From Bdellovibrio sp. (lineage in GTDB: Bacteria; Bdellovibrionota; Bacteriovoracia; Bacteriovoracales; Bacteriovoracaceae), in assembly GCA_016187935.1 (NCBI GenBank), contig JACPIU010000029.1, forward strand, positions 1 to 36,310: DNA of 36,310 nucleotides. Direction: 5' to 3'. The position numbers and the translations under genes are program-made. The notes under the pieces were generated by a model. The model made no database searches and was not told the DNA's origin. It saw nothing but the letters and a program-made list of their open reading frames with translations. Below, piece by piece: positions 2,164 through 30,462 of this stretch (within the stretch, counting starts at the first letter, position 1; every line of letters starts with the position of its first letter).

Positions 2164-2305
2164 AAATGCTCCTTGATTCTTGTTAAACAACCAAAATCAT
2201 GTTTATTTTTATATTATTTAACGAAAATCAGATATTAAGTGGCTCATTCAAACAAGTGCTTTTATCTACAAAACGGATTGTTTGATTAATTGCCATCTAA
2301 TGACA

Positions 2306-2596
2306 TTAAATAAATTTGTAGGCCAGACCACTTATTTCCTTTGAGAGTTTCTTGCAAAGTTGATATATGTTGGCGCCATCTTGACTCGATTCAAAAACAT
2401 GATTAACGCATAATACTTTTAGATTTCCATGCAACGACTGGCTATTTTTTTTCTTCTCAATTTGTAATTGAATTTTTGCATTCCTCAATACCTGCTTATC
2501 TAACAAACTCAATTCTTGGCCTACAAAATCCTTTTCCCTATTGTCTAAGCTGACGCCTACTAATTCCAAATCATAATCAACACTATTCTCGTCCAT
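2306..2596 (-). CDS. HPF/RaiA-like ribosome hibernation factor
   Basis: This 96-residue protein matches the short HPF pattern by eye. An N-terminal strand (LELVGVSLD) leads into a helix with a Leu-x-x-Leu-Asp pattern. A basic central strand (IQLQIEKKKN) and a further strand follow, then the FESSQDGANIYQLCKKLSKEISGL segment. That segment aligns with the S/A-x-G-x-D-M-Y-x-A-I helix of HPF, which binds the 16S decoding region and silences ribosomes during starvation. It lacks the long C-terminal dimerisation domain of long HPF. AAGGAGG lies at the right distance before the ATG. The assignment rests on pattern, not on a search. Confidence 0.6.
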   Translation of the reverse strand: MDENSVDYDLELVGVSLDNREKDFVGQELSLLDKQVLRNAKIQLQIEKKKNSQSLHGNLKVLCVNHVFESSQDGANIYQLCKKLSKEISGLAYKFI

Positions 2597-2621
2597 TCAA
2601 TCCTCCTTATATTACTTCACC

Positions 2622-2858
2622 TCATCCGTTGAGGTAGAATTCAGTGCAGATATCATAACTATCTATCAGCTTTATATTTGCGTAAACACCAGCTCGAACA
2701 ATGCCGCTAAACATATAAATCTCTCTAGCAAGGTTTAACTCATCACAACTAATTACTGAGTCGAAATAATTTTCAAATACTGAAATGATCTTGGATACGA
2801 GCAAAATCAATGGTTGCCTTGATTTTCGATATGACCTCACAAAATAAAACAGAAGCAT
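2622..2858 (-). CDS. Small hypothetical protein upstream of the HPF-like gene
   Basis: This 78-codon frame ends 25 bases before the HPF-like ATG, whose ribosome site fits in the gap, so the two could be one transcript. The start at 2858 has no clear Shine-Dalgarno. A GTG start nearby (V7 in this frame) is an alternative. The protein has a basic N-terminus, a hydrophobic patch (PLILLVSKIISVFE) and no motif I recognise. A plus-strand frame overlaps the same bases and is equally unsupported, so this may not be a gene. Confidence 0.35.
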   Translation of the reverse strand: MLLFYFVRSYRKSRQPLILLVSKIISVFENYFDSVISCDELNLAREIYMFSGIVRAGVYANIKLIDSYDICTEFYLNG

Positions 2859-3111
2859 TTTTAAAAATTCAAATCATTTCTGATGATGAGATTCTCGCAA
2901 TACCACTGCGTGTTTTTAGTAACTGGAATCCTCATATTGCATGTTGCATTTTACTATCACTTCAACACATTCCTCCTCAAAAGGAAGGGACGTGAATGAC
3001 CACATTGTGTCCATGTTCTTAATCAATCTTCTAATAAAGCGGAATCATATTAATAATTTTCAATGTACATTATAAATAATATGTGTCGTTATCCATCCAA
3101 GAGGTGTCAGT

Positions 3112-3330
3112 ATGGGCTATTCAAACAAGACAAACCGCAAAAACAATATGACGAGTGATTTGTATCCTGATGATTTCAAAGTCAAAATTCCAAAAGTAAA
3201 TTTCAAAAAGAGGCAGTGCGCCGGATGTGGTAAACTTTTCACACCCGCAATGAAGCTTGATTATTGCTGCAATCAATGTAAAATTGAAAATAGTGAAATG
3301 TTTTCACAATATTCCGACCTGGGATATTAG
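3112..3330 (+). CDS. Small zinc-ribbon protein, copy 1
   Basis: The 72-residue product is Lys/Asn-rich at the N-terminus and carries CAGC followed after 14 residues by the second pair in YCCNQC, a four-Cys zinc knuckle or ribbon. The segment KLFTP between the Cys pairs and the C-terminal aromatic tail recur in the 72-residue protein encoded at 4086-4304. A weak ribosome site (AGAGGTG) precedes the ATG. An imperfect FNR-type half-match palindrome (ATGTT-N4-ATCAA) lies at 3013-3026. The function is unknown. The size and metal site suggest a nucleic-acid or protein-binding regulator. Confidence 0.65.
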   Translation: MGYSNKTNRKNNMTSDLYPDDFKVKIPKVNFKKRQCAGCGKLFTPAMKLDYCCNQCKIENSEMFSQYSDLGY

Positions 3331-3338
3331 TTCGCACT

Positions 3339-4304: not shown

Positions 4305-4672
4305 TTTTCCATTCCAAACATTTATAATGATGGGGATTTTCGATACAGAATCTATCATGTAAACCATACGCATATTTCGACAGTATGTTTTCCAACGCAT
4401 TCAATACTGATTTTAAACATGATAGAATCAAGTCACAGCTCACGTTTCGTTGATAAAACGGTAATCACTTGATCTGAGTAATTACATTTATATCAATGAT
4501 GGATCTAATTACCAAATTCTATTATCCCCATAAACTTATTTAATCTTAGTAAACTTTGCACTCGGAAATTGCTACGTACATATTTGACTAATATGACATG
4601 GCAACAAGAGAGAAGGAAATTACCAAAGATAAGAAAGAAAATATTTAAACCTATTTCGAGACTGGAGGAAAG
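4305..4672. other. Gene-free stretch upstream of the FNR-like regulator
   Basis: These 368 bases carry no credible gene. They are AT-rich and contain an imperfect FNR-type palindrome (TACAT-N4-ATCAA, 8 of 10 consensus positions) at 4483-4496, about 180 bases before the regulator start. It could mark autoregulation or be chance. No terminator with a clear T-run was found. Confidence 0.4.
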
Positions 4673-5395
4673 ATGAGTACTAGACAAGAAATCCCATCGC
4701 ATTGCAAAGAATGCAACACTTACAAAAAATCACTATTCTGTGATATTGCAAATGAACCTTTAGATTGTATATCAAAGAGTAAAGTAACTAACTTTTATAA
4801 GAAGGGAACCACCTTGTTTTTCGAGGGAACTCCTAACTATGGTTTATTTGAAGTTTGCTCTGGGAAGATAAAAATTTCAAAGTTGACCTCCAATGGAAGC
4901 TGCACAATTGTAGATATCGCCACATCGGGGGACACTATCGGATTAAGTTCCATTCTTGAACAGCAACTATACACAACTTCTGCCGAGGCGGTAGAAGACT
5001 CTGTTGTATGTTTCTTTGACAAGAATTTTTTCACCACCACGGTCTTAAAGGAGAGACCGGTTGTTATCAACATCATTGATCGGCTTTCAAGAGAAATTCA
5101 TAACTCAACGAATCGTATTTCCTCATTGTCTCAAAAAAATGTGAGAGAAAAATTAGCAGAACTCATCCTATCCCTGTCTGAAAACTACGGTAAAATCGAG
5201 GGTGAAGGTAATAATCAAAAGCTTGACATTCTACTGAGCCGCGATGAAATGGCTTCAATGATAGGTGTTGCCAAAGAAACGCTTATTCGCACCTTAAGTG
5301 ATTTTAAGGATGAAGGATTAATTTCACAAAAAGGCAAATATCTTTATTTGCAAAATAGAACAAAATTAAATCAATATGCCAACTTGCAGTATTAA
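4673..5395 (+). CDS. CRP/FNR-family transcription regulator with N-terminal cysteines
   Basis: This 240-residue protein has Cys at 11, 14, 23 and 32 before a cyclic-nucleotide-binding-type beta-roll (YKKGTTLFFEGTPNYG onward), a long dimerisation helix, and a winged helix-turn-helix near residues 185-218. The spaced N-terminal Cys suggest an oxygen-sensing iron-sulfur cluster as in FNR, although the spacing differs from E. coli FNR. The recognition helix contains KETLIRTL. The Glu and Arg align with the FNR and CRP residues that contact the TGA core, while Ile replaces the FNR Ser. A strong GGAGG precedes the ATG. A perfect FNR box lies at 12167-12180 in this window. It converges with the TonB-like gene. 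Confidence 0.88.
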   Translation: MSTRQEIPSHCKECNTYKKSLFCDIANEPLDCISKSKVTNFYKKGTTLFFEGTPNYGLFEVCSGKIKISKLTSNGSCTIVDIATSGDTIGLSSILEQQLYTTSAEAVEDSVVCFFDKNFFTTTVLKERPVVINIIDRLSREIHNSTNRISSLSQKNVREKLAELILSLSENYGKIEGEGNNQKLDILLSRDEMASMIGVAKETLIRTLSDFKDEGLISQKGKYLYLQNRTKLNQYANLQY

Positions 5396-6819: not shown

Positions 6820-7111
6820 TTTAAATTCTACCCAAATAAAGGTTTATTGACAGCGCCGAATATCTAGGCCCAGCAAGACTCTTTAACAATGATTAAAAAC
6901 AAAACATCGCTTGATATTAAACGCCCCAACGAGACCGATTGATAACAAGTCTCATTCATGACTATCATCATTTATCGACAGTTTATCGTTCACACTCGCT
7001 ACATTCACTAATCATCCTCAAGAATTCAAATCACAAGTATAAGTAGGATGTCTCAAATTTGGGCCGAGATACTTATCTTAGTTCATTGATACATTTTAAC
7101 AAGGATGGATT

Positions 7112-7867
7112 ATGATAGAAATGAATTCCGTATCAAAACTTCTCGCGAAAGACTCTCTGCTGAATCATTTCAGGCACTTTCTACGCAATGAAAATGCATT
7201 AGACAAGGTGGCCATATTATTTTCAGATCAGAAAACCTTGGCAAATCAAAAATTAGCAAATGTAAAGGGCCATATTTTTGATTCAATTTTTTCAATAGCA
7301 GAAATTTTGTCCGCAATTGCTTTGACTGTCATTTTATTACCCTTAATGATTTTGATTTTTGTTGGCGTAAAACTTACATCCAATGGGCCCGGAATATACA
7401 GCCAAAAACGTGTCGGAAAACATGGGCATGAATTTAATATCTATAAATTCAGAACAATGATTCAGAACGCCGAGAAGGAAAGTGGGGCGGTGCTTTCCTG
7501 GCATGGCGATCCTCGCATAACCACATTTGGCAATTTCCTCCGCTCAACTCATCTTGATGAATTGCCACAGATCATCAATATCATTAAAGGTGAAATGTCA
7601 TTCATTGGTCCTAGACCGGAAAGGCAAGAAATTATCAAGACGTTTGAACAACACGTAAAGGGATATAATCATCGCGCAGTGGTTCTACCAGGAATTACAG
7701 GACTTGCACAAATTTGTTGCCCGTATGATGCCACACCTGAAACCAAGCTGAAATATGATCTATATTATATCCTAAACAGGTCGTCGATTTCGCTAAATTT
7801 AATGATTCTATACTTCACAGTTGGTAAATTCTTTTATGGAATTTCTGGCAATAACTCGCAAACTTAA
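7112..7867 (+). CDS. Initiating sugar-phosphate transferase (bacterial sugar transferase family)
   Basis: This 251-residue enzyme has a leading soluble stretch, one membrane hairpin near residues 60-86, then the family motifs YSQKRVG, KFRTM (112-116), the catalytic Asp-Glu pair in LDELPQ (149-150) and GPRPER (166-171). The family transfers a sugar-1-phosphate from a nucleotide sugar to undecaprenyl phosphate, the first step of a repeat unit at the inner membrane. It is a short form without the multi-span N-terminal domain. AAGGATGG precedes the ATG. The beta-barrel gene starts 4 bases after its stop, so they form one operon. It is the plausible priming enzyme for the whole locus. Confidence 0.92.
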   Translation: MIEMNSVSKLLAKDSLLNHFRHFLRNENALDKVAILFSDQKTLANQKLANVKGHIFDSIFSIAEILSAIALTVILLPLMILIFVGVKLTSNGPGIYSQKRVGKHGHEFNIYKFRTMIQNAEKESGAVLSWHGDPRITTFGNFLRSTHLDELPQIINIIKGEMSFIGPRPERQEIIKTFEQHVKGYNHRAVVLPGITGLAQICCPYDATPETKLKYDLYYILNRSSISLNLMILYFTVGKFFYGISGNNSQT

Positions 7868-8882: not shown

Positions 8883-10067
8883 ATGGATGACTTTATGAAT
8901 GAACTTATTTTAAACAACATTGTATTTTCTCCTGATAATAAAGATCTAAAAGACAACTGGGAACGATTATCCTCACAAATCCTTCCCCGTGGACTATCCA
9001 TGGAATACATCTGGTTCAAAAGCTGCGCAGAAGCTTGCAACAAGTTTCTCATAAATACGAATGTATTCGAAATTAAGGATCCACTAACAGATAAGATCGT
9101 CGCTCTTATTCCGAACGTCGTAAGACAAGAGACTTTATATCGTTTTTTTCCAATCAAGGCCTTATATCTCATGCGATTTAATCTGGAATATGGCGATCAT
9201 TATGAACTATTAATTGCACCCGGATACTATACGGCAACAATAAAACTACTGACAGCGTGGATGATTAATAATCACATTGACGCTTGCTTCTTAAATAACA
9301 TGCACTGCAATTCAAAGCTAGCATCGGTATTTCCCATCTCACGGAAATCATCATTACTCTCAGCAAGATATAAAAAAATTCCATGTGCCTATATTCTATT
9401 GCCGACACAGGATAAATACGGAGATTGGAGTGCTGGAAAATTCAAAAGAATTTTGCAATATAAACGAAAGCTCGAACGGACATTTAACGTCTCCTATTTG
9501 AGAATTGAAAACCAAGAAGAGTTATCTTTGGTTCTATCACGCTATAAAATCATGCATACAAGTCGTTTTCTGAACAAAGGTACAGCAAGTTCAATTTGCT
9601 CAGACCCTGTACAATTCAACTTTCTTGAAAGATTGGCACACAATGCTTTTGACACGGGGACCCTACTGGCCCATTATATAAAACTTAATGACGTCATCGC
9701 CTCTGTGGAAATATCATTTTTAATTCAAGGTAACGTATTCGCATACACTGTGGCATTTGATGAAAGTTATGCCCAATATAGAATAGGCTCAATTCAAACT
9801 CTTATTATGATAGAGAGAGCTATTGAACATGGAGCGGATATTTTAGATTTACTTCAAGGAGACGAAGGTTATAAGCAATTCTGGTCTAAAAGTTTGCAAC
9901 TTGATTATGATCTTATTGCCTTCCCAAAAAACAGATATGGATATTTCTTGTACCTAATCACAATTTTTCGCAGGCCACTTAAATTAGTTTATGACATTAT
10001 TCGATTATCCAAGATTTTTGTGCCTAAGATTGGTGCCAATGTTAATCCACGCGAAATAAACACGTAG
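8883..10067 (+). CDS. FemAB/CelD-type acyltransferase (GNAT fold)
   Basis: This protein of about 394 residues belongs by pattern to the Acetyltransf_6/CelD-BcsL group related to FemAB. The clearest block is the C-terminal segment running from FDESYAQYRIGSIQTL through GADILDLLQGDEGYKQFWS, where the G-D-E-x-Y-K-x-x-W signature is typical. Members are common in cellulose and exosortase-associated polysaccharide loci and probably acylate sugars or add amino acids in the cytoplasm. The ATG at 8895 has a better ribosome site (GGATG) than the one at 8883. The last 79 bases overlap the 3' end of the convergent ligase gene. Confidence 0.8.
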   Translation: MDDFMNELILNNIVFSPDNKDLKDNWERLSSQILPRGLSMEYIWFKSCAEACNKFLINTNVFEIKDPLTDKIVALIPNVVRQETLYRFFPIKALYLMRFNLEYGDHYELLIAPGYYTATIKLLTAWMINNHIDACFLNNMHCNSKLASVFPISRKSSLLSARYKKIPCAYILLPTQDKYGDWSAGKFKRILQYKRKLERTFNVSYLRIENQEELSLVLSRYKIMHTSRFLNKGTASSICSDPVQFNFLERLAHNAFDTGTLLAHYIKLNDVIASVEISFLIQGNVFAYTVAFDESYAQYRIGSIQTLIMIERAIEHGADILDLLQGDEGYKQFWSKSLQLDYDLIAFPKNRYGYFLYLITIFRRPLKLVYDIIRLSKIFVPKIGANVNPREINT

Positions 10068-11284
10068 GCCATACCATCGTGATTGCACACAATATAAATA
10101 AGAATCATCCATAAAATATAAATTTCTTTGTAGCCGGCCGAAATGGTCATGCTATTTATCATCAGGCCCAAGACAATCGCCATATTCATAACGGCCAGTT
10201 CCTTGTCCCTATTGTAATTTTTCACAATGGCTTTAGCGATAACTGAAATAAAGAAAACATAAAGCATTAGACCCAAAATACCTGTCTCACAAACAATTTT
10301 CAGGATTGTGTTGTGTACCTCATAAGGTGAGGCGGCCGATTGAAAGGCAGGGAATTCCGAGAATTGATAGTAATATTCGGAAGATTGATTCCAACCTACT
10401 CCAAACCATGGTGACTTTAAGAAAGTACGATAACCTGCATTGAGCGTTTTTAAACGGTCCATATTAGATGCATCACTCATATTGATAAATCGGGTAAGAA
10501 TCTTATCACCAAAAGAAAATAATGAGCTAAGAAATAAACTAACACTTGCCAATGAAATTAGAATCATTTTTCTTTCCCACTTTAACATGCCAGCGAGCAA
10601 TAATAAAATAGTCACAAGTGCAATAATCCCCATGCGAGATTGATTCATTATGGTGCAAAGAAGAAAAAATCCTGCGAGCAAAACATAAAAAAAACTTTGA
10701 TGGAGTTGTTGTGATTGACGATAGCGGTATATCGTCAGGGGAATACAGGCCGTGAAATATGTGCTTAAGAAATTAGGATCTCCGTTTTTAATCTTTAGCA
10801 AAGGTCTCAAATCGTATTCGCGTACTTCGTGCAGAATTAAAAAGCGGTACATGAATATGATGCCTAAAACGGTAAAAGAGATCAGCATAACACTCATGAG
10901 TTGATTCTTTCTTATTTTATTGTTCATGTAAAATACCATAAGTGGTGCCAATGAAACAATTTTGAAGAAGCTACGGTATTCACCATTCGCTATCACGTTC
11001 AAATAATCATTATTAACTAATGAAGTAATTTGCGGGCAAATTAGTACAAGCAAGACGAATATTGAATTCTTAATGAATTTTTGATCATAGATTATTGCGA
11101 ATCTGTTTACTACAAAAACATCTAATGCCGCTGAAGCAAAGATCATCAGGGAACAGCCTAGTTCAAGCGGAAGAGCACTTAGGAAAGGAATTTGAAGATG
11201 CAGATTTGTTACAATAAAAAAAATATATAGATATATATAAGTAAGGGGAGAGAAAAATAGTGCAAAGGGTTTTAACTTATTCAT
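9989..11284 (-). CDS. O-antigen ligase/polymerase family membrane protein (Wzy-like)
   Basis: The protein of about 431 residues has roughly ten hydrophobic spans and a large periplasmic loop. That loop carries PWFGVGWNQ and then VHNTILKIVCETGILGLMLY, the conserved Wzy_C/WaaL block with its His. The family polymerises or ligates undecaprenyl-linked glycans on the periplasmic side. Here, next to Wzz and without a lipid A core locus, a polymerase role is more likely. The ATG at 11284 overlaps the Wzz stop by 8 bases. The longer frame starts with TTG and is less likely. Its 3' end overlaps the acyltransferase gene by 79 bases. Confidence 0.85.
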   Translation of the reverse strand: MNKLKPFALFFSPLTYIYLYIFFIVTNLHLQIPFLSALPLELGCSLMIFASAALDVFVVNRFAIIYDQKFIKNSIFVLLVLICPQITSLVNNDYLNVIANGEYRSFFKIVSLAPLMVFYMNNKIRKNQLMSVMLISFTVLGIIFMYRFLILHEVREYDLRPLLKIKNGDPNFLSTYFTACIPLTIYRYRQSQQLHQSFFYVLLAGFFLLCTIMNQSRMGIIALVTILLLLAGMLKWERKMILISLASVSLFLSSLFSFGDKILTRFINMSDASNMDRLKTLNAGYRTFLKSPWFGVGWNQSSEYYYQFSEFPAFQSAASPYEVHNTILKIVCETGILGLMLYVFFISVIAKAIVKNYNRDKELAVMNMAIVLGLMINSMTISAGYKEIYILWMILIYIVCNHDGMAYVFISRGLTLAPILGTKILDNRIMS

Positions 11285-12089
11285 GAATACGTGATACAAT
11301 ATAGTAGAATACTATCCCAACTAATAATCCCGTGAAGGTGGAAAAAAATATTATTAAATCCCATCTTGGCCATATCGGATGAGTTGGAATATATGGGTTA
11401 TTTATAGTTTTTACTAATGTCTTACTTTGAATAGTTTGCAGAATGTTTTCAACATATAGTTTTGCATCTGCCTCATAAGCGGCGTTAATTCTTCGTTGTA
11501 AAAATGAATTCATATCATCATTTCGTTCCTTTCCAAGTTCATGCTTGATCGATATTGCTTTAATCTGTAATTCCTCAAGCGAGACATCATTTCGCTTAAA
11601 CATAACTTCTTCATACAATGACTTCAGCTGTGACATCAGCAAGCTTACAATCTCTTTCGCCAACACTGGGTTTGTATCTACCACTGTAAAAATAAAGACA
11701 TTGGCATCACCACCAGTGTATTGTATTTTTATTGCTTTCTTCATTACATTAATGTAATTCGCAACTAAATCTTCCTGTTCCATATTCGGAAATTTTTTTG
11801 AAAACATCTCATATCTGCTTTTTAACTGGCGTGACGTATTTAGGACATCATGAAGAAGAGTGTCTTGCAGCAGCATGCTTTTCATGGAAAGACCATCTCG
11901 AATCCATACCCATCTATTTTGAGTTTCCGGCATAAAATTAGAAACAGGAGGCAGACTAGGGCGCATGATTCCAATAGAACCAGAAACCTCATACACAGGT
12001 CTCGCTAATGTGCAATAGACAATGCTCAGCAAGAATCCGATCAATGCAAAAGACGGTATGGACCAGTACGATTTATAGTGTTTCATCAT
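11277..12089 (-). CDS. Wzz-type polysaccharide chain-length determinant
   Basis: The protein of about 270 residues has a membrane span near its N-terminus (YWSIPSFALIGFLLSIVYCTL), a periplasmic helical region, and a second span near the C-terminus preceded by a Pro-rich NNPYIPTHPIWPR segment. This is the Wzz/PCP topology with the Pro-rich motif before the second helix. There is no attached tyrosine kinase domain. It would set polymer length together with the overlapping ligase/polymerase. The start at 12089 is preceded by AAGG. The longer frame would use TTG. A perfect FNR box sits 78 bases upstream. Confidence 0.85.
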   Translation of the reverse strand: MMKHYKSYWSIPSFALIGFLLSIVYCTLARPVYEVSGSIGIMRPSLPPVSNFMPETQNRWVWIRDGLSMKSMLLQDTLLHDVLNTSRQLKSRYEMFSKKFPNMEQEDLVANYINVMKKAIKIQYTGGDANVFIFTVVDTNPVLAKEIVSLLMSQLKSLYEEVMFKRNDVSLEELQIKAISIKHELGKERNDDMNSFLQRRINAAYEADAKLYVENILQTIQSKTLVKTINNPYIPTHPIWPRWDLIIFFSTFTGLLVGIVFYYIVSRIHE

Positions 12090-12166
12090 GCAGTACCTTG
12101 TGACTAAGAACAAACATTTTTTCCATGATAAGTCTTAAATGAAAATGATAATATCTGGTGTGGATA

Positions 12167-12180
12167 TTGATCTCAATCAA
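12167..12180. promoter_or_regulatory. Perfect FNR-type operator, TTGATCTCAATCAA
   Basis: This 14-base site matches the FNR consensus TTGAT-N4-ATCAA at all ten fixed positions, and the arms extend to ATTGAT/ATCAAT. It lies between the divergent Wzz (start 12089) and methyltransferase (start 12247) genes. An FNR-like regulator is encoded at 4673-5395. Binding and direction of control are inferred. Confidence 0.7.
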
Positions 12181-12246: not shown

Positions 12247-12993
12247 TTGCCGCTAGTAGCTTATCACTCTTCAAAAACAGCGCATGAGAACTATACCCGT
12301 TTCTTAACCGATTACATTATAAAAAATCAATTAAGAAACATCTGCGAAGTCGGTGGGGGTTCAAACCCTTCCTTGTCACTTAAATTTATTCAAGACAACA
12401 ACATTCAGTATACTCTGCTTGACGTTTCACAAGATGAGTTAAATAAGGCTTCCGATGACTTTCATAAAATAAGGACCGATATCGTCTCTTCTGATATTAG
12501 AAGCCTTACTTCAAAGTTTGATTTTATTTTTACAAAAATGGTTGCTGAACATGTGAGTGATGATGAAATTTTTCATAAAAATATCTATCATCTTTTAGAA
12601 AAAGGTGGACATGCATTTCACTTTATACCAACCTTATGGGCGCCACCCTATATTGCTAACCTGCTGATTCCTGAAAAACTTGCTTATAAGGTCTTGTTAT
12701 GGATCGATCCAAACAGGGCAGAGGCCGGACATTTTCGAAAATTTCCAGCTTATTATAAGGGATGCAGAGGGCCGACAAAAGGCCAAATCAAAAAGCTGGC
12801 ATCTTATGGATACAATGTTATGGAATATATAGGCTTCTTCGGACACGCTTATTATTACCAGAAAATTAAACCGCTTAAATGGCTGCATGAAAAATTAGCT
12901 TCGTTTCTAATCCAGCACCCAATCGCATGGTTAACAAGTTATGCCTATATCACGTTACAAAAACCTTTGGAGACGTCACGACAATCACGATGA
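12247..12993 (+). CDS. SAM-dependent class I methyltransferase
   Basis: This 248-residue protein has the Rossmann motif I ICEVGGGSNPSLSLKF near residues 32-47, an acidic ribose-binding strand (YTLLDVSQDEL) and the later segment FDFIFTKMVAEHV as motif II. It probably methylates a sugar or a lipid-linked intermediate in the polysaccharide pathway. The start codon is TTG at 12247, supported by a GAGGAG ribosome site seven bases upstream. No ATG with a comparable site is nearby. It opens the rightward transcript that continues into the GH44-like lipoprotein and a glycosyltransferase, and lies just downstream of the FNR box. Confidence 0.8.
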   Translation: MPLVAYHSSKTAHENYTRFLTDYIIKNQLRNICEVGGGSNPSLSLKFIQDNNIQYTLLDVSQDELNKASDDFHKIRTDIVSSDIRSLTSKFDFIFTKMVAEHVSDDEIFHKNIYHLLEKGGHAFHFIPTLWAPPYIANLLIPEKLAYKVLLWIDPNRAEAGHFRKFPAYYKGCRGPTKGQIKKLASYGYNVMEYIGFFGHAYYYQKIKPLKWLHEKLASFLIQHPIAWLTSYAYITLQKPLETSRQSR

Positions 12994-13102: not shown

Positions 13103-14788
13103 ATGCTTAAATTATTACTTGTCTCAGCTTGTCTCGTAGGATGTAATATTTCTGAATCCGAAAAATATCATGAAACTAACTTGCAAGAAGCAACAGCATC
13201 CGTTGGCGAGATTCGAGAAGAAATAAAAGATGAATTGTCGGGGACAATCTCCATCAATCTCAACACAGCCGGAAATAGAGGAACCGTTACACGTGAATTT
13301 TATGGCACACAGCTCTCCCCTTTTACCGATTATCCAAGCACAGAAATTGTAAAGAAATTAGCGCTCGGTACGATTCGAATAGGTGGAAATCTCTATGATA
13401 CTTTTAATTGGGAAAATGGAATGGCCTTTCTTGCCAGAGGACATTACAAAAAACTTCAACCTTATGAAGAGGCCATCAGCAAAGTAAGAGAGTATGGCGC
13501 AGAACCAATCATGCAAATCAACTTGCTTGGACAGATGCCTATTTACCGTAATGGTCGTCCAACTATGTCAAATACCGCAAGCGCCCAATCCGCTGCAAAT
13601 TTTATCCAACATGCCAATGGCATCTTAAAATTAAACATAAAACATATTTGTCTTGGCAATGAATTTGACCAATGGGCAGATACACATGCAGATATTTGGC
13701 AATACGATGAACCAATGTCGGCCGATGAATACATTGATCGATACATTGAATATGCAATCGCAGTTAGAGGCGGTCAGGAAAAAGTTTCCGGGAATCCAAA
13801 CGATATCAAGCTTTGGGGACCTGAAATTGCGAATTCATTTGCTGATTGGCAAAGTGGTAATATGAAAAAAGATTGTCAATGGACTTCAGTTCAAGGAGTC
13901 ATGGAATGCAGCTATGGCAATGGGGAATTCGATCACTTTCTGCCATATTTCTATCATCGATTATCAAAAGCTGAAAATGATACCTCTATCAATCCGAAAG
14001 GATATAAATTGCTGGATTATGCAAGTTTTCATTACTACCCCACTTTCAGAACGAAAGTGAGTGATCCTAATTCCATTATTGTCGACCGTACAGGACGTCA
14101 GATGGTCAATGAAATGCTCGAATCAACCCAACTCTTTCATGTTAGCGATTATGTAAATATCTACGATAGAGGATCGTATATGAATTTCCGGCCCAATCTA
14201 TTCAATCGCATGCAAGAATGGAAGAACCAGTATTATCCAGATGCGAAACTTGTCCTTTCTGAATTTGCGGTTGATTCCTTAGATACGACTCCCAACTATC
14301 ATCCTATTGTTCGACCGCTTTACATGGCAGAGTTGGTGGGAATAGCAGCTAATAGTGGAATCGAAAATTTCAATCGCTCCTTCTTAAATACAAATCATCC
14401 CCAACCAATTCCTTGGGCACTTGTGTTAGATGATGCACCTACAAATTTGTATAATATGTATAATTTGTACACAGAACATTTTTTGGGTCAACTTGTCGAT
14501 GTAGAAGATACTTTTGAAGATAAGGTAAATTCCTACGCAACAATTAACACTGACAATGATAATAAGCACATTGCCCTATTTGTAGTTAACAAAAGTGCTA
14601 ACATGCACGCGGCCAGCATTCATCTCAAAAATGAGTCAACAGATTTGCCACTGTTCGATTATGAAGTTAAGCCATGGGGAGTCACATTATTTTTGATACC
14701 AATGAATAACCCAACTCCAGAGGATATCAAAATAATCGAATATGGAGCGAAAGAAATGGGAATCACTGTTGATTCACATTATCAATGA
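13103..14788 (+). CDS. GH44-like glycoside hydrolase lipoprotein
   Basis: This 561-residue protein starts with a short hydrophobic stretch and LVGC (Cys14), so it is a probable lipoprotein. The mature part resembles a TIM-barrel clan A hydrolase. It has IRIGGNLYDTFNWENG (about 91-106), close to the RWGGN-x-x-x-x-x-NW block of GH44, GNEFDQW with a candidate acid/base Glu187, and LSEFAV with a candidate nucleophile Glu387. A C-terminal beta-sandwich (HIALFVVNKS through VKPWGVTLFLI) is also typical. It probably cuts or trims a beta-linked polymer in the cell envelope. GGAG precedes the ATG. Assignment to GH44 is by motif only, and GH30/GH51-like families are alternatives. Confidence 0.72.
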   Translation: MLKLLLVSACLVGCNISESEKYHETNLQEATASVGEIREEIKDELSGTISINLNTAGNRGTVTREFYGTQLSPFTDYPSTEIVKKLALGTIRIGGNLYDTFNWENGMAFLARGHYKKLQPYEEAISKVREYGAEPIMQINLLGQMPIYRNGRPTMSNTASAQSAANFIQHANGILKLNIKHICLGNEFDQWADTHADIWQYDEPMSADEYIDRYIEYAIAVRGGQEKVSGNPNDIKLWGPEIANSFADWQSGNMKKDCQWTSVQGVMECSYGNGEFDHFLPYFYHRLSKAENDTSINPKGYKLLDYASFHYYPTFRTKVSDPNSIIVDRTGRQMVNEMLESTQLFHVSDYVNIYDRGSYMNFRPNLFNRMQEWKNQYYPDAKLVLSEFAVDSLDTTPNYHPIVRPLYMAELVGIAANSGIENFNRSFLNTNHPQPIPWALVLDDAPTNLYNMYNLYTEHFLGQLVDVEDTFEDKVNSYATINTDNDNKHIALFVVNKSANMHAASIHLKNESTDLPLFDYEVKPWGVTLFLIPMNNPTPEDIKIIEYGAKEMGITVDSHYQ

Positions 14789-14795
14789 GCAATAA

Positions 14796-15893
14796 ATGGC
14801 GCTGAAGATTTTACATCTTGTTGAATATCTGTATCAGGGAGGAATAGAAAGATTCTTATCTGAAGTTGCTCGAATTGTTCCAAACTCAGTGTTGCAACAA
14901 AGCTTCTTCGCCTATGAAATGAGTGATTTTTCTGGTATTGCGAAAGAATTAAAGAACACGGGACGTGACATCAGAATCTACAAGAAGGAATATGGATATG
15001 ATTTTAGTCTACTCACTCGATTGTCTAGGATAATACGAGAAGAAAAGATTGAGATAATACACACCCATGATTTCGGACCGATGGAATATGCCGTGCCCTT
15101 AAAAATATTGAACCCTCATTTGATTCTAATTCATACTCAACATACTCTGCACCATTTCGTCATAAATTTAAAATATAGACTGTTCTTTCAGTTTGCCAGT
15201 TACTTTTATAACAAGGTTATTGCAGTCTCCGAGCACGTAAACGATATTGTATCCAAAAAGTGTCCTCATATGAAAAATCGCCCAACCGTAATTCACAATG
15301 GCGTTGATGTCGAACACTTTTCGCAATTAAAAAACACAACCATTGTGGGTAACAATGCTTTACGCTTGGTATGCATTTCAAGAATCTCAAAAGAGAAAAA
15401 CCTAATACACATTCTACGGGCCTGTAATAAACTAAAGCAATTCAATGTTGATTTTCATCTACATCATGCCGGTACTGGAACAAAAAAAGAAGTTGATTCG
15501 ATTCTAGGATTTATTGAAACTAATCAATTAGGTCAAAACATCACACTTCATGGGCATCAGGATGATGTCAGAGAAATACTAAAGCACGGGGATATTTTCA
15601 TTTCAAGCTCATTCACAGAAGGACATCCGATTGCTGTATTAGAGGCCATGGCAAGTTATAAACTTTGCTTATGCAGCAACATACCTCCACATCAGAAAAT
15701 TTCACCCAATGGGATAATTCTATTTAACCTCGATGATGAGCATGACTTGTTTAACAAGTTACTTCAAATAAGTAAAAAACAAATCAACTACAGTAATAAT
15801 CTTTCACAAGCAGTTATTTCGATTTCGGAAAAGTATACAATTCAAGAAATGATCAATCAGTACATTAACATTTACTCATTAGCAATCAGTTAA
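14796..15893 (+). CDS. GT4-type glycosyltransferase
   Basis: This 365-residue GT-B enzyme has the N-terminal YQGGIERFLSEVA glycine loop, a central LVCISRISKEKN strand opening the nucleotide-sugar domain, and the E-x7-E motif (Glu275, Glu283) in FTEGHPIAVLEAMA. It should retain the anomeric configuration when moving a sugar from a nucleotide donor to the lipid-linked glycan at the cytoplasmic face. It begins 7 bases after the hydrolase stop, so the two are in one transcript. Acceptor and donor cannot be read from sequence. Confidence 0.9.
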   Translation: MALKILHLVEYLYQGGIERFLSEVARIVPNSVLQQSFFAYEMSDFSGIAKELKNTGRDIRIYKKEYGYDFSLLTRLSRIIREEKIEIIHTHDFGPMEYAVPLKILNPHLILIHTQHTLHHFVINLKYRLFFQFASYFYNKVIAVSEHVNDIVSKKCPHMKNRPTVIHNGVDVEHFSQLKNTTIVGNNALRLVCISRISKEKNLIHILRACNKLKQFNVDFHLHHAGTGTKKEVDSILGFIETNQLGQNITLHGHQDDVREILKHGDIFISSSFTEGHPIAVLEAMASYKLCLCSNIPPHQKISPNGIILFNLDDEHDLFNKLLQISKKQINYSNNLSQAVISISEKYTIQEMINQYINIYSLAIS

Positions 15894-15997: not shown

Positions 15998-16876
15998 ATG
16001 AACACAATTGCACTCAGTTTTGATATTGAAGATTGGTTCTGTGTCCAAAACATGAAAGAGATTTTTCCATTTAAAAAATGGAATTTATGTGAATTGAGAG
16101 TATATGAAAGTACAAATTACATTCTCAAAACCTTAAATGAAAGAAATATCAAGGCCACATTTTTTGTTTTGGGATGGGTGGCCGAGAGAATACCTGACCT
16201 AGTTCTCAATATTGCAAAGCAGGGACATGAAATTGCTACCCATGGCTACTCTCACACCCCAATTAACCATATGACCAGAAACGAGTTTCAAAAGGACACA
16301 GAAAAGTCTTTGTCCCTTCTCCAGGATATTGTCGGACGACCGATATATGGGTATCGCGCCCCAAGTTTTTCAATTACTAAAAACACACTTTGGGCCTTGG
16401 ACATCCTGAGAGAACTTGGAATCAAATACGATAGTAGCATCAATCCTATAAAACATCCCGAATACGGAATCGTCGGATTCAATCAGGAAATTCATTTCGT
16501 CAATGGGATTCTTGAAGTACCTCTTGCAGCATCATCATTGTGGGGGGTAGAAATTCCAATTTCAGGCGGCGGTTTTTTTAGATTATATCCTTATTGGTTT
16601 TTTAAAATGATGTTGCGAAAAAAAAGTTCGAATGGACATGCCGTCACCTATTTTCATCCTTGGGAATTCGACAGCAAACAACCGAAAATAAAGTTACCAC
16701 TATCAAAAAAATTCCGTCACTATATAGGATTAGAAAAAAACAAAAATAAGTTCGAGAAATTCTTAAATGACTTTGAGTTCGTTCCAATCTGCCAGCTCAT
16801 AAATGGACACTTGCCGCTTATGATATCACATGAGAAAGGGCCCAAGCTTGATCAGGAAGTAATATATCTGCCTTAA
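15998..16876 (+). CDS. Polysaccharide deacetylase, exosortase-A-locus type
   Basis: This 292-residue NodB-fold protein begins LSFDIEDWF, with Asp12 as the likely metal ligand. It continues with ATFFVLGW, HGYSH (His82, His86), YRAPSFS and a late YFHPWEFD. The opening DIEDWF and the closing HPWEFD are characteristic of the deacetylase subfamily found with XrtA/EpsH loci, which is about this length. It would remove N-acetyl groups from the sugar polymer or its precursor. A good AAGGATG site precedes the ATG. Its 3' end overlaps the convergent GNAT gene by 59 bases. Confidence 0.9.
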   Translation: MNTIALSFDIEDWFCVQNMKEIFPFKKWNLCELRVYESTNYILKTLNERNIKATFFVLGWVAERIPDLVLNIAKQGHEIATHGYSHTPINHMTRNEFQKDTEKSLSLLQDIVGRPIYGYRAPSFSITKNTLWALDILRELGIKYDSSINPIKHPEYGIVGFNQEIHFVNGILEVPLAASSLWGVEIPISGGGFFRLYPYWFFKMMLRKKSSNGHAVTYFHPWEFDSKQPKIKLPLSKKFRHYIGLEKNKNKFEKFLNDFEFVPICQLINGHLPLMISHEKGPKLDQEVIYLP

Positions 16877-17561
16877 TTTTCACCATTGCGCGATCTTTAC
16901 TATAGGAATGGAATTTGATCGAGAACCTTTTTTCATTTCTTATTATATGCCACTGCAAATGGCCAATTGTTAAGCAACTAAGTTGAAAGCTTTTCACAAA
17001 TCCCAAGCGCTTGTGGGAATTAAATGAATTATGATTATCGAGATCTGTTGCAGTAATGAATCGACTACCGATGGGAAATTGCTTGATACAGTAACTTGCA
17101 AAATGAGGAAAGACACCCTTTAATCGGTATTCAGGATGAATAAAGCCATTTCCGAAAAAAATCATATTTGGAGAAAGTTCAATGGCAATATTTTTTTTCT
17201 TATAATCGTCATACGTGATTATATGCTGATTCAAAAAGGCCCAATAATACCCGATTAAGACATCGTTTTTTCTCGCTACAAAACAAATATTTCCAGCTTT
17301 AAAAAAATTCGAAAATATTTCTCGTTGTGCGGCGACTCCACTTTCTCCTGTCATAAAAACGAGTTCGTCAAGAAGAGAATCAAATTCAGGCCTAGATAGT
17401 ATGTCTTGGTTAATTCTTTCAAACTTAATATTCGACAGATTACGCACAAGTAATTTTTCATTCAGTGTCGAGAATTCAAGGCCAAGTATCGTATGAAAAT
17501 AAAATCTATCATGAGAACAAAAACGTGATTCTGAAATGCGCGCAAGAACTCGTGAAATCAT
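16818..17561 (-). CDS. GNAT-like acetyltransferase
   Basis: The C-terminal half of this 247-residue protein carries a GNAT layout. A strand ending in FGNGFIHPEYRLKGVFPHFA (motif A with a degenerate R-x-x-G loop) is followed by FITATDLDNHNSFNSHKRLGFV, the N-x-x-x-x-x-x-x-x-G-F block. The N-terminal half is unrecognised. It could N-acetylate or O-acylate a sugar of the repeat unit. AAGGAG precedes the ATG. It is divergent from the acyl-AMP ligase and convergent with the deacetylase. Confidence 0.68.
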   Translation of the reverse strand: MISRVLARISESRFCSHDRFYFHTILGLEFSTLNEKLLVRNLSNIKFERINQDILSRPEFDSLLDELVFMTGESGVAAQREIFSNFFKAGNICFVARKNDVLIGYYWAFLNQHIITYDDYKKKNIAIELSPNMIFFGNGFIHPEYRLKGVFPHFASYCIKQFPIGSRFITATDLDNHNSFNSHKRLGFVKSFQLSCLTIGHLQWHIIRNEKRFSIKFHSYSKDRAMVKIKADILLPDQAWALSHVIS

Positions 17562-17616: not shown

Positions 17617-17630
17617 GTGACTATAATCAA
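17617..17630. promoter_or_regulatory. Possible FNR-type site, 8 of 10 positions
   Basis: GTGACTATAATCAA matches eight of the ten fixed FNR positions. It lies between the divergent GNAT and acyl-AMP ligase genes. It is weaker than the site at 12167 and could be chance. Confidence 0.35.
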
Positions 17631-17713: not shown

Positions 17714-19306
17714 ATGGATAAATTTCTGTATCCTATCAGTTTAAGCGATTTCCTCGTGCGTGCGGTAGAAAAATCGCCCACTAAAATTGCTTGCATTGAA
17801 CAAGGAATTCCATATTCATATGCATCTATCTACGATCAATCCTGCAAACTTGCAAACGCATTACAAAATAAAGGACTCAGTCGCGGTGATCGTGTTGTTC
17901 TTTTCATGGATAACTCGGTTAAAACTATCATCTCACTTTTCGGAACATTATTGGCCGGAGGAGTCTTTTCAATCATAAATCATCAAACAAAGGCAAATAA
18001 GTTAAAGTTCATTTTAGACGATAGTGATGCCAAAATTCTAATCACCAATTACGCGTTACAGGGAACTTATCGGAAAGCATTAGAATTAGGGACACAGATA
18101 AAGGCGACTATCGTAACTGAACTTACACCGGATAGTAGATCATCTTTATGTGAAAATGCATTTGAGGATTTAACCCAGTCTATCGAACCGATTGTAAGCC
18201 CCTATCGAAACATCCCAACTGATCTCGCGGCATTAATCTACACATCTGGAAGTACCGGCGATCCAAAAGGGGTTATGATGAATCATCAGTCGATGATTTT
18301 TATGACTCACTGTCTCGATTATTATCTTGGTCTTGATAGTGAAGAACGCATTTTGAACTTCCTGCCCTTATCATTTGATTACGGACTTTATCAGGTTTTC
18401 ATGACGATTAGCCTGGGAGCAACTTTGGTTTTGGAGAAATCATTCAGTTATCCGGAGAAGATAATTGAAACGATAAGCAAAGAAAAGGTTACAGTTTTTC
18501 CCGGTGTCCCCACAGTTTATAAAACATTGATCGCATTAACCCAAAAAAGAAAAATCGTATTTGATAAAGTTCGAAAAATCACGAATACAGCAGCGTCACT
18601 ATCTGCGGACTTGATCCCAGACTTGCAAGCAATATTTCCCAATTCCCAAATATATAAAATGTACGGTTTAACTGAATGCAAGAGGGTCAGTTATCTTTCA
18701 CCCGACAATCTTCAAAAGGCCCCTCATTCGGTAGGCAAGGCCATTCCCGGCACTGAAGTCTTCTTACTCTCTCAAAACGGACTTCCTGTTGCTGCTGGCG
18801 ACCTTGGTATTCTCCATGTTCGCGGCCCTCATCTTATGATGGGTTATTGGAAGCGTCCTTATGAAACAGATCAGATGCTCAAAGAAGGGCTTTATCCCGG
18901 TGAAAAGATTTTATGTACCCATGACTGGTTTACAATCGATAGCGATGGTTTTCTTTATTTCAAAGGCAGAAGTGACGATATTATTAAAACACGCGGAGAA
19001 AAAGTATCACCGATTGAAGTAGAAAATTGCTTAGACGGAATTGAAGGAGTCAAGGACTCGGCAGTCATGGGAGCACCGGATGAATTATGGGGACAATCAA
19101 TTATCGCCTATATTGTTCCGGACGGAACGGTCGAGCTTAATGAGCATACAATAATAAAATCATGTCGAAATAAACTCGAAAACCATATGGTTCCTAAAAA
19201 AGTCATTTTTGTGGATGAATTGCCTGTAACTGCATCAGGCAAAGTGACCAAGTCAGGATTAATTCGAACGCAGCACATGGAGGAAGCCTATGCAGGCAAT
19301 AATTGA
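17714..19306 (+). CDS. Acyl-CoA ligase-like AMP-forming enzyme, exosortase-locus type
   Basis: This 530-residue ANL-family enzyme has the phosphate loop YTSGSTGDPKG (176-186), a MYGLTE motif, the hinge region FKGRSDDIIKTRGEKVSPIE, and a C-terminal catalytic Lys510 in TASGKVTK. It activates a carboxylic acid as an acyl-adenylate and passes it to a thiol. The next gene encodes an acyl carrier protein and overlaps by 17 bases, so the ACP phosphopantetheine is the likely acceptor. AGGAGAAA precedes the ATG. The acid cannot be deduced. The set closely resembles acyl-ligase/ACP pairs of XrtA/PEP-CTERM loci. Confidence 0.9.
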   Translation: MDKFLYPISLSDFLVRAVEKSPTKIACIEQGIPYSYASIYDQSCKLANALQNKGLSRGDRVVLFMDNSVKTIISLFGTLLAGGVFSIINHQTKANKLKFILDDSDAKILITNYALQGTYRKALELGTQIKATIVTELTPDSRSSLCENAFEDLTQSIEPIVSPYRNIPTDLAALIYTSGSTGDPKGVMMNHQSMIFMTHCLDYYLGLDSEERILNFLPLSFDYGLYQVFMTISLGATLVLEKSFSYPEKIIETISKEKVTVFPGVPTVYKTLIALTQKRKIVFDKVRKITNTAASLSADLIPDLQAIFPNSQIYKMYGLTECKRVSYLSPDNLQKAPHSVGKAIPGTEVFLLSQNGLPVAAGDLGILHVRGPHLMMGYWKRPYETDQMLKEGLYPGEKILCTHDWFTIDSDGFLYFKGRSDDIIKTRGEKVSPIEVENCLDGIEGVKDSAVMGAPDELWGQSIIAYIVPDGTVELNEHTIIKSCRNKLENHMVPKKVIFVDELPVTASGKVTKSGLIRTQHMEEAYAGNN

Positions 19307-27461: not shown

Positions 27462-28508
27462 CTACACCAACAACAATCGCCACAACGTCAAAGACGCCGA
27501 GAAATCCCCTGACTTATCACATACAAAGTTGTCCCATATATTTATTCGTTTCAATTCAAATAAGCTTGTTTCGGCAGTATTAACGCCAGAAATAGTTGTA
27601 AATGCCAGTGAGTATCCGGCTTTCTTCACCTCTTGAACAATCTCCTGATTATGCATCCCTGATGGATAAGCGAAAGCAATAACTCTCTTGTTCACATTCA
27701 ATTCCAGATCACTTTTTGACTGACAGAGTTCCTCTCGGACTTCATGGATTGGAATCTTAGTGAGGAATCGATGAGTCATTGTATGAGAGCCAATAGTGCT
27801 TCCAGTTGCTTCAAATTCTAATAATGAATTTAATGTCATCGATTTTGCCAGCGGGCCATGACGACCCTGCAGGTATCTATTATAACTTTGGGTAAGATAA
27901 TTTGTGATTCCGTCGATTAATTTAAAATCTAGATTTTTTAAATGCTCAATGAACAGGTACACCGGAACTATCCTGTCCTTCCAAGACATCAGAAGTATTT
28001 CTTCGAAGTTTTTCTTCAAATCATCTTGCAAGAGTGAATACAATCGAGAATCGACCGGTGTGGTCAAATCAGCGCAACTGAGAAAGCCAAAAACTGCATC
28101 CCACCAGAAAACCGACGAGGTCCCTAATGTTTTAGCAACAGCAAACATGGTGGATGGAACGGAATATCTCTGAAGCGCTGATAACGCATATAAATATGTC
28201 TCCTCATAAGCATCATCAAATGTCAGCATGATGGCCCTGCGTGGTAATTTCTTTCCTGTCTTTTTGGCCTCTAACAGATCATGAACCGAAATCACCGTAA
28301 AATACCTCTTGATCAGCTTAATCAATTTTTCGTAATTGCCTTTGCCAATGCTGATAGTAGGGAGTCCTACAACTGTGCCATCAGTTACCCGATGGAACAT
28401 TAAGATAGTTAGCCGAGGTTTAGACAGATTACGAAAGAAAAAAGCAATTTCGAAGCCCTTCAGATAATAAAGTAACTTTATAATGGCATACAATATTTTT
28501 CTCTTCAT
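27462..28508 (-). CDS. NodB-type polysaccharide deacetylase
   Basis: This 348-residue protein has a hydrophobic N-terminal stretch, then LTILMFHRV, the catalytic TFDDAYEE (Asp98, Asp99), an insertion of about 90 residues, SHTMTH (His242, His246) and AYPSG. All are NodB-domain landmarks. It is a different subfamily from the deacetylase at 15998 and would deacetylate another sugar or act at another stage. It is the first gene of the leftward operon continuing into Wzx. Confidence 0.87.
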   Translation of the reverse strand: MKRKILYAIIKLLYYLKGFEIAFFFRNLSKPRLTILMFHRVTDGTVVGLPTISIGKGNYEKLIKLIKRYFTVISVHDLLEAKKTGKKLPRRAIMLTFDDAYEETYLYALSALQRYSVPSTMFAVAKTLGTSSVFWWDAVFGFLSCADLTTPVDSRLYSLLQDDLKKNFEEILLMSWKDRIVPVYLFIEHLKNLDFKLIDGITNYLTQSYNRYLQGRHGPLAKSMTLNSLLEFEATGSTIGSHTMTHRFLTKIPIHEVREELCQSKSDLELNVNKRVIAFAYPSGMHNQEIVQEVKKAGYSLAFTTISGVNTAETSLFELKRINIWDNFVCDKSGDFSASLTLWRLLLV

Positions 28509-28809
28509 CGTTGCATCTTTATTTTCGATTCAGAATTGTTCATCCTGTAAAAATCAAACAACAAATGCAATCATTATTTGCGATGGTCTACCGAGAAATG
28601 ATAAAGATAATTAGTGCCACTGGTCTGCATCTGCTATGAGTATGACTTCGGTCAGCACCAAAAAAGACATAGCATATCCGCGGCTTCATCAGCGACATCG
28701 TTGCTTAAAATCATTCCTGACATTGATTGATGCATTTTCCTCAAATAAATCTTTAAGGCAAATTGTCTGGCACCAATGATTTAATTCATCTAACACAAAA
28801 GGATTATTT
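28509..28809. other. Divergent intergenic region
   Basis: About 300 bases separate the leftward deacetylase operon from the rightward protease gene. No gene, strong palindrome or FNR box was found. Promoters for both directions must lie here but no -35/-10 pair stands out. Confidence 0.35.
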
Positions 28810-30462
28810 ATGTGGAATGGCCGGCCTTTATTTTCATTTCTCTTCATCTTCAGTTTTATTTTCACAACTTCATATATAAGCGCGCAAAGTGAAACTGAAA
28901 CAGATAATACAGAAGATGTCGTTTACTTAATCAAGACGAAGAAAGAGATGACCCTATCAGACCTCAATGAGATTCTTGATAAGCATGGCTTTAAAGTCAA
29001 AAAGCATTTCAAACAAATTAACGTTACTGTAGCTGCCCACAATAATCCACAGCAAGTGCAGGGTTTTAAAGACGAACAAAAAGATAAAATCGTTTATATG
29101 GAAATCGATGCTCCTGTTTCCATTGTTAAAACACCCAATGACAAATTATTTCAAGAGCAAGATTCACTGCATCGTCTCGGGATAGAAAGGGCGTGGGATG
29201 TCACCACAGGTTCCTTCAAAGTCATTATAGCTGTGAGCGATACCGGAATTTATGCACTCCACGAAGACCTGGCCAATCAGATTTGGACAAATTTCAAGGA
29301 AATTCCAAATAATGCCAAAGACGATGATGGGAATGGATTTGTCGATGATGTCAGCGGCTGGAATTTTATCACAAGCACAGGGAGACCGACCGATGACCAC
29401 GGTCACGGAACACACGTGTCGGGTATTATCGGGGCAGAAGGAAATAACAATTACGGCGTCTCAGGCGTGAATTGGGACGTCCTTGTTATGCCTCTAAAAT
29501 TTCTCGACAAAAATGGCAGTGGCACAACCTCAGGCGGAATCTCAACCATTTTGTATGCTGCGGACAACGGTGCCAAAGTTTTGAATGCGAGCTGGGGTTC
29601 TTCAAGCAATTCAGCGGCATTAAAAGACGCCATCGATTATGGCTATTCAAAAGGGATGCTCACAATCGCGGCCGCCGGAAACAATGCTGCCAACAGCGAT
29701 AAAGAGCCCATTTATCCAGCAGGAACAGATAGCGATGGAGTGATTGCGATCGCCTCTTCATCTGCAGATGGCGAGCTGTCGTCATTTAGTAATTTCGGTG
29801 GCACTTCAGTGCACTTGGCCGCACCGGGCTCAAATGTGCTTTCCACTTATTTGAATAACACCTTTAAACGCATGAGTGGAACTTCTATGGCCACTCCCAT
29901 GGCGTCCGGTGTAGCAGGTCTCTTTCTGGCCGTTGACCCAACATTGACAGCGCTCGAATTAAGAAATGCCCTTCTCAACAGCGTGGCAATTAGAACGAGT
30001 TATGACGGCCTTTTAATTACCGAAGGCGATCTTGATCCTTCAGTCACCTTAGGCCAGATGAATGAAGAATTTAAAATCTGGCCGCACCAGGTTAACATTA
30101 ATAATGGGGATAGTTTCCAATTCGCTGCTCTCAAAGCTCGAGGCCAAGTGGTATGGAAATTGAGCGGAAAAAAAGATAGAAAATTGGCCAGCATTGATCA
30201 AAATGGCCGATTAACAACAGTTCAAGGCAAGTCCGGCGTTCTGACAGTTTCTGCAACGGATGAGCAAGGCCATGAAGCATTTACGGGAACTATCACGGTG
30301 GTAAATGCTGGAGGCAACCGGGGTGGAGGTTGTACTAAAGAGGCCTATGCTGCTGGGGCCATGGAAAATCAACATAATTCAAAAGCACAATATCTTCTTG
30401 GATATATTTTCCTTATAGGTTTGATTCTTGCTTATAAGAAGCTCAAAAAGAATTTTTTCTAA
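28810..30462 (+). CDS. Subtilisin-like S8 protease with a C-terminal anchor signal
   Basis: This 550-residue secreted protease has a signal peptide (cut near SYISAQ), an I9-like propeptide (about 34-105), and an S8 domain with the triad Asp144 (SDTGI), His199 (HGHGTHVSG) and Ser359 (GTSMATPMASG). A beta-rich Big_2-like domain follows (about 420-500). The C-terminus reads GGNRGGGC with Cys508, then a polar spacer of about 19 residues, a hydrophobic helix (YLLGYIFLIGLILAY) and KKLKKNFF. This looks like a sorting tag removed at or near the Cys by a membrane protease. AAGGATT precedes the ATG. A perfect 12-bp hairpin terminator follows. Confidence 0.92.
   Translation: MWNGRPLFSFLFIFSFIFTTSYISAQSETETDNTEDVVYLIKTKKEMTLSDLNEILDKHGFKVKKHFKQINVTVAAHNNPQQVQGFKDEQKDKIVYMEIDAPVSIVKTPNDKLFQEQDSLHRLGIERAWDVTTGSFKVIIAVSDTGIYALHEDLANQIWTNFKEIPNNAKDDDGNGFVDDVSGWNFITSTGRPTDDHGHGTHVSGIIGAEGNNNYGVSGVNWDVLVMPLKFLDKNGSGTTSGGISTILYAADNGAKVLNASWGSSSNSAALKDAIDYGYSKGMLTIAAAGNNAANSDKEPIYPAGTDSDGVIAIASSSADGELSSFSNFGGTSVHLAAPGSNVLSTYLNNTFKRMSGTSMATPMASGVAGLFLAVDPTLTALELRNALLNSVAIRTSYDGLLITEGDLDPSVTLGQMNEEFKIWPHQVNINNGDSFQFAALKARGQVVWKLSGKKDRKLASIDQNGRLTTVQGKSGVLTVSATDEQGHEAFTGTITVVNAGGNRGGGCTKEAYAAGAMENQHNSKAQYLLGYIFLIGLILAYKKLKKNFF

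Follow-up and report, generated by a model that had tools for sequence, protein, structure and literature searches.

Conserved FNR-type operator candidates between divergent exopolysaccharide operons in a Bdellovibrio-related bacterium

Does a single FNR-type palindrome between two divergent polysaccharide transcripts mark an operator, and if so, which protein would use it? The question is raised by a contig of Bdellovibrio sp. (GCA_016187935.1, JACPIU010000029.1), analysed here over a stretch of 36,310 nucleotides, which we refer to as the window. The palindrome TTGATCTCAATCAA at 12167–12180 (no strand assigned) matches all ten fixed positions of the FNR box and has the core TGAT-CTCA-ATCA at 12168–12179. 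As the initial annotation had stated, it lies in a divergent intergenic region, with the gene for a Wzz-like chain-length protein on its left (11277–12113, minus strand; the listed start is TTG, the probable one an ATG near 12091) and a methyltransferase-like gene on its right (12247–12993, plus strand; TTG start behind GAGGAG).

The genes around the palindrome form a polysaccharide cluster. On the minus strand it includes a Wzy/O-antigen-ligase-like polymerase (9989–11299; PF04932), and on the plus strand a GH44-family-like protein (13103–14788; PF12891, with weak similarity to the EpsB model NF041873), a GT4 glycosyltransferase (14796–15893), a polysaccharide deacetylase of the exosortase-A (XrtA) type (15998–16876) and a polyprenyl-phosphate sugar transferase (7112–7867; PF02397). 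The deacetylase matches TIGR03006 above cut-off (312 bits vs. 276), a feature shared with XrtA-type and Myxococcus-EPS-type clusters, as are the AMP ligase, amidotransferase, Wzz-like, Wzy-like, FemAB-like and GH44/EpsB-like genes. The other signature models (TIGR03098, TIGR03108, TIGR03007 and TIGR03097) score below cut-off, and the window genes scanned include no exosortase gene.

A perfect match does not by itself say much. Shuffled versions of the window contained 0.26 perfect boxes each on expectation, with at least one box in 24 of 100 shuffles, and a single perfect box at this scale is within chance expectation. When two mismatches were allowed, 74 matches were found vs. 56 expected, and for this reason sites described as ‘8/10’ carry no weight as such. 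Genome-wide, 29 perfect boxes with the N4 spacer were counted, vs. a mean of 23.8 per spacer for TTGAT/ATCAA half-site pairs over spacers N0–N12 (309 in total); in the stretches read around these boxes, 25 of the 29 fall within long ORFs. On this spacer control and these positions we rejected the idea that the perfect box is enriched genome-wide, and a canonical FNR regulon with the perfect-box pattern is thus not visible at that scale. Six of the 29 boxes share the spacer CAAA/TTTG (TTGATCAAAATCAA; contigs C8, C25, C31, C47 and C48); five of these lie inside ORFs, and one lies between a gene for a cysteine-less CRP/FNR protein (L007) and a histidine kinase gene.

What exceeds chance for the palindrome is its conservation, not the match itself. 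The window is syntenic almost end to end with contig MEPP01000009.1 of Bdellovibrionales GWA2_49_15, and at the orthologous wzz/methyltransferase promoter of that genome TTGATCTGAGTCAA is found at the aligned position of TTGATCTCAATCAA, the rest of the region having diverged. Loss of the site in close relatives had been named beforehand as the outcome that would speak against it, and the site is retained. Beyond the palindrome, a wzz transcript leader is also conserved at 12118–12160 (TTTTTTCCATG, TAAATGrAAATGA). A −24/−12 sigma-54 promoter over 12150–12180, judged by eye, was rejected on finding that the relative is without the required GG.

The comparison with GWA2_49_15 was extended to 12 orthologous intergenic pairs (3149 aligned columns, 61% identity), in which we counted 896 half-site and spacer patterns and scored a palindrome as conserved only if both genomes have it in matching alignment columns. 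For TGAY-N4-RTCA there are three such copies, at 12168, 17618 and 28643, and it is the sole pattern with two or more; 13 others have one copy and none has two. With TGAY at any other spacer from N0 to N12, the 12 pairs contain zero conserved matches. All three copies sit in divergent promoter regions of the polysaccharide cluster. A reading of the palindrome at 12167 as an accident of AT-rich DNA could appeal to the shuffling result and to the absence of genome-wide enrichment, but the retention at the aligned position, together with conservation of the motif at two more divergent promoters, leads us to regard it as highly improbable. The early emphasis on the perfect ten-position match was nevertheless misplaced, since the conserved motif is the looser TGAY-N4-RTCA.

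The second conserved core, TGACTATAATCA at 17618–17629 (within GTGACTATAATCAA; no strand assigned), has the counterpart GTGACTATTATCAA in GWA2_49_15 and is embedded in a conserved 23-bp block, CGCCAAGGTGACTATwATCAAAG. Leftward from it runs a GNAT-like gene (16818–17561, minus) and rightward an acyl-CoA/AMP ligase gene (17714–19306, plus; TIGR03098-like, below cut-off). The third, TGACTTCGGTCA at 28643–28654 (likewise unstranded), lies in the divergent promoter between a PgaB-like polysaccharide deacetylase gene (27462–28508, minus) and a subtilisin-like protease gene (28810–30462, plus); its core is kept in three species, with immediate flanks that have largely diverged. In total the window contains seven TGAY-N4-RTCA cores, five of them intergenic. 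A weaker candidate, TGACTATCATCA at 6959–6970 (unstranded), is found in a fourth divergent region, between the TonB side and the sugar transferase, where GWA2_49_15 has TGACCTTCCTCA with seven of the eight core positions. Most of this footprinting compares two genomes, and the stretches of the fragmentary third species cover one of the three promoters. Three weaker sites had also been proposed from the sequence: the one at 17617 is genuine, as its conservation (GTGACTATAATCAA/GTGACTATTATCAA) shows, and those at 4483, where the core is not conserved, and at 3013, where no conserved core was found, are noise. With a TGA core, an N4 spacer and palindromes conserved at promoters, a cluster-wide set of FNR-type operators at divergent promoters is well supported by the sequence comparison.

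The spacing of these sites to promoter elements gives some indication of how they might act. The centre of the site at 17618 lies at −65.5 relative to a −10-like element, a spacing that is conserved in both genomes and hints at class-I-like activation. The site at 12168 is centred at −41.5 from a weak rightward −10 element found in the window only, which would suit class-II activation, and at −32.5 for the leftward wzz promoter, overlapping the −35 element, a position compatible with repression. Neither −10 element at 12168 is well conserved.

An FNR-like gene in the same window, as had been noted, is found at 4673–5395 on the plus strand. Its product, P0001, has four cysteines at FNR-type positions (residues 11, 14, 23 and 113), a recognition helix KETLIR and the two-domain CRP/FNR architecture known from FNR of E. 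coli and Aliivibrio fischeri, with a cNMP-binding-like domain (PF00027) and a Crp-type HTH (PF13545), both above cut-off; among the NCBIfam models, Fnr (NF008365) matches it best, though below cut-off at 88 bits vs. 228. Among 21 aligned regulator proteins, C11, C14 and C113 are invariant and C23 is present in 20. In E. coli FNR the cluster is ligated by C20, C23, C29 and C122, and C11, C14 and C113 align with C20, C23 and C122. The third N-terminal cysteine, the counterpart of C29, is shifted by three residues, giving C-X2-C-X8-C where FNR has C-X2-C-X5-C. All 21 proteins moreover have an ExxIR recognition helix (E202-x-x-I205-R206) instead of the ExxSR of FNR. The cluster sites resemble the FNR box TTGAT-N4-ATCAA in being palindromic with a TGA core and an N4 spacer, and differ from it in that the outer T/A is dispensable.

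The regulator gene is syntenic in GWA2_49_15. That genome has a second copy nearby (L071:16999–17721), 81% identical to the window protein and located beside MBL and Hsp20-like genes; in the counterpart of that locus, window positions 2191–3338, the flanks are kept and the regulator gene is absent. In a third species a regulator copy is found beside genes for a subtilisin and a deacetylase that are similar to the ones in the window cluster. A further genome with the regulator and Wzz on one contig (G119) was excluded as independent support, because the regulator there adjoins a cNMP-domain-like gene, as does the other cysteine-bearing FNR-like gene of the window genome, L005 (contig C16). Across the order, 88 of 129 genomes encode homologues of the regulator. 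The genome of the window has at least five CRP/FNR-type genes, with ExxIR helices also in paralogues of the linked regulator.

The motif is found across the order. Of 31 orthologues or paralogues of the regulator, 21, in nine genera, have TGAY-N4-RTCA upstream, with each of the other spacers from N0 to N10 found at zero to two loci. Counted by genus, the core stands ahead of the FNR-like regulator gene in eight of 12 others of the order. It is also found upstream of several ccoS-ccoN units in other genera. Since the core precedes these regulator genes and ccoS-ccoN units, the motif of the cluster promoters matches that of the regulator lineage, and the relatives use this form and not the strict TTGAT-N4-ATCAA. 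Upstream of the regulator genes the base outside TGA is usually C or A, not T. In a matrix built from the order-wide sites, the core at 12168 ranks fourth in the window and scores only 9.2 vs. a training median of 16.4; the low score arises because an outer T/A is unusual among those sites. The upstream region of the local regulator gene at 4673–5395 is itself without a core site.

In many relatives (e.g., L077–L106) ccoI-ccoS-ccoN is separated from an FNR-like gene by a few kilobases; the genome of the window has no convincing ccoN (24.6 bits), though it keeps an FNR-like gene on contig C16. The canonical TTGAY-N4-RTCAA was searched for upstream of ccoN in 30 relatives, was not above other spacers and gave one single-mismatch match. 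The bases just upstream of ccoN are often coding (ccoS/ccoI) and not promoter, and a de novo palindromic EM search of these regions was discarded, its patterns having stemmed from coding sequence.

Which protein would bind the cluster sites can be approached by asking where sites and regulator occur together. In three other genera with FNR-like orthologues, homologous polysaccharide clusters (GH44, Wzz, Wzy, deacetylase) have no core sites in their intergenic regions, and within the stretches read no regulator copy is linked to them. As sites and linked paralogue thus occur together, we favor the linked protein as the binder. A serious rival is L005, which as a global FNR could bind the same, real operators, with the linked gene having other targets or modulating the response. 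Its cysteine pattern and ExxIR helix are identical in type to those of the linked regulator, its promoter bears the same core in two species (TTGACCTATGTCAT upstream of L005 and TTGATCTATGTCAT upstream of its GWA2_49_15 orthologue), and the motif is spread over the order rather than confined to the duplicate; the joint occurrence of sites and linked paralogue, however, makes this assignment the less likely one in our view. We consider it unlikely that a cysteine-less CRP/FNR paralogue of the L007, L008 or L009 type uses the sites in response to a different signal: such proteins also have E-T-x-I-R helices, and in the window genome a perfect TTGATCAAAATCAA precedes L007, but that site is not seen ahead of related regulator genes of G001 and G002, and the genes of this type are unlinked to the cluster.

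With the linked regulator as the favored binder, we find it probable, with moderate confidence, that the palindrome at 12167 belongs to a set of three or more conserved operators (12168, 17618 and 28643) for an FNR-type homodimer, most likely the product of 4673–5395, that co-switches the divergent EPS operons. Such a dimer would bind TGAY-N4-RTCA at the divergent promoters of the cluster, so that slime production would be switched as one unit. The four cysteines could hold a labile Fe-S cluster and make DNA binding dependent on oxygen or redox state, as in FNR, with the dimer probably active while the cluster is intact, i.e., at low oxygen. We infer this oxygen or redox control from the cysteines and the family context, and binding by the 4673–5395 protein, the Fe-S cofactor and the direction of control are likewise predictions from sequence. 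The proposal of oxygen- or redox-controlled polymer production in the initial annotation stands in part: the linked FNR-like regulator and the recurrent conserved sites speak for it, and on the other side are the ExxIR helix and a cysteine-bearing paralogue elsewhere in the genome as an alternative candidate binder.

Capsule and biofilm under FNR-type control have been described in other bacteria (PMC12309544, PMC3797731, PMC11227560). FNR of K. pneumoniae influences hypermucoviscosity, by a route described as compensatory or indirect (PMC12309544), and Anr affects biofilm in P. extremaustralis (PMC3797731). The system predicted here would resemble both in that an oxygen-responsive FNR-type regulator affects surface polymer or attachment. 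It differs from these global regulators in having its operators within the cluster, at divergent promoters, and in the linkage of a regulator paralogue to that cluster, a linkage that also sets it apart from FNR itself, as does the genome without a convincing ccoN. The kind of control is known; what is new is the lineage in which it would act, the paralogue linked to the cluster, a set of operators spread over several promoters, and a cysteine spacing, helix and operator that depart from those of FNR.

More tentatively, and with somewhat less than even confidence, we suggest that this Bdellovibrio-related order uses an FNR lineage with C-X2-C-X8-C, ExxIR and a relaxed TGAY-N4-RTCA operator, whose ancestral targets may have included its own promoter and cbb3-oxidase genes, and that in one genus a duplicate moved beside an EPS cluster and captured it by operator gain at divergent promoters. 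If true, this would link oxygen to exopolysaccharide through a concrete, testable switch in a little-studied Bdellovibrio-related lineage, indicate that a duplicated global regulator can become cluster-linked with its ancestral DNA motif retained, and correct the pattern for FNR-target searches in the order from TTGAT-N4-ATCAA to TGAY-N4-RTCA.

Two observations elsewhere in the window may be added. The gene at 163–1560 encodes an MBL beta-CASP protein whose best NCBIfam similarity is to type VII Cas14 (377 bits, below the cut-off of 800), with 300 bits against aCPSF1 (below the cut-off of 580). Upstream of the regulator gene, at 4536–4566, some 30 bases beginning with TTATTTAATCTTAGTAAACTTTG are nearly identical in GWA2_49_15; they do not form an FNR-type core, and we point them out as a further candidate regulatory element.
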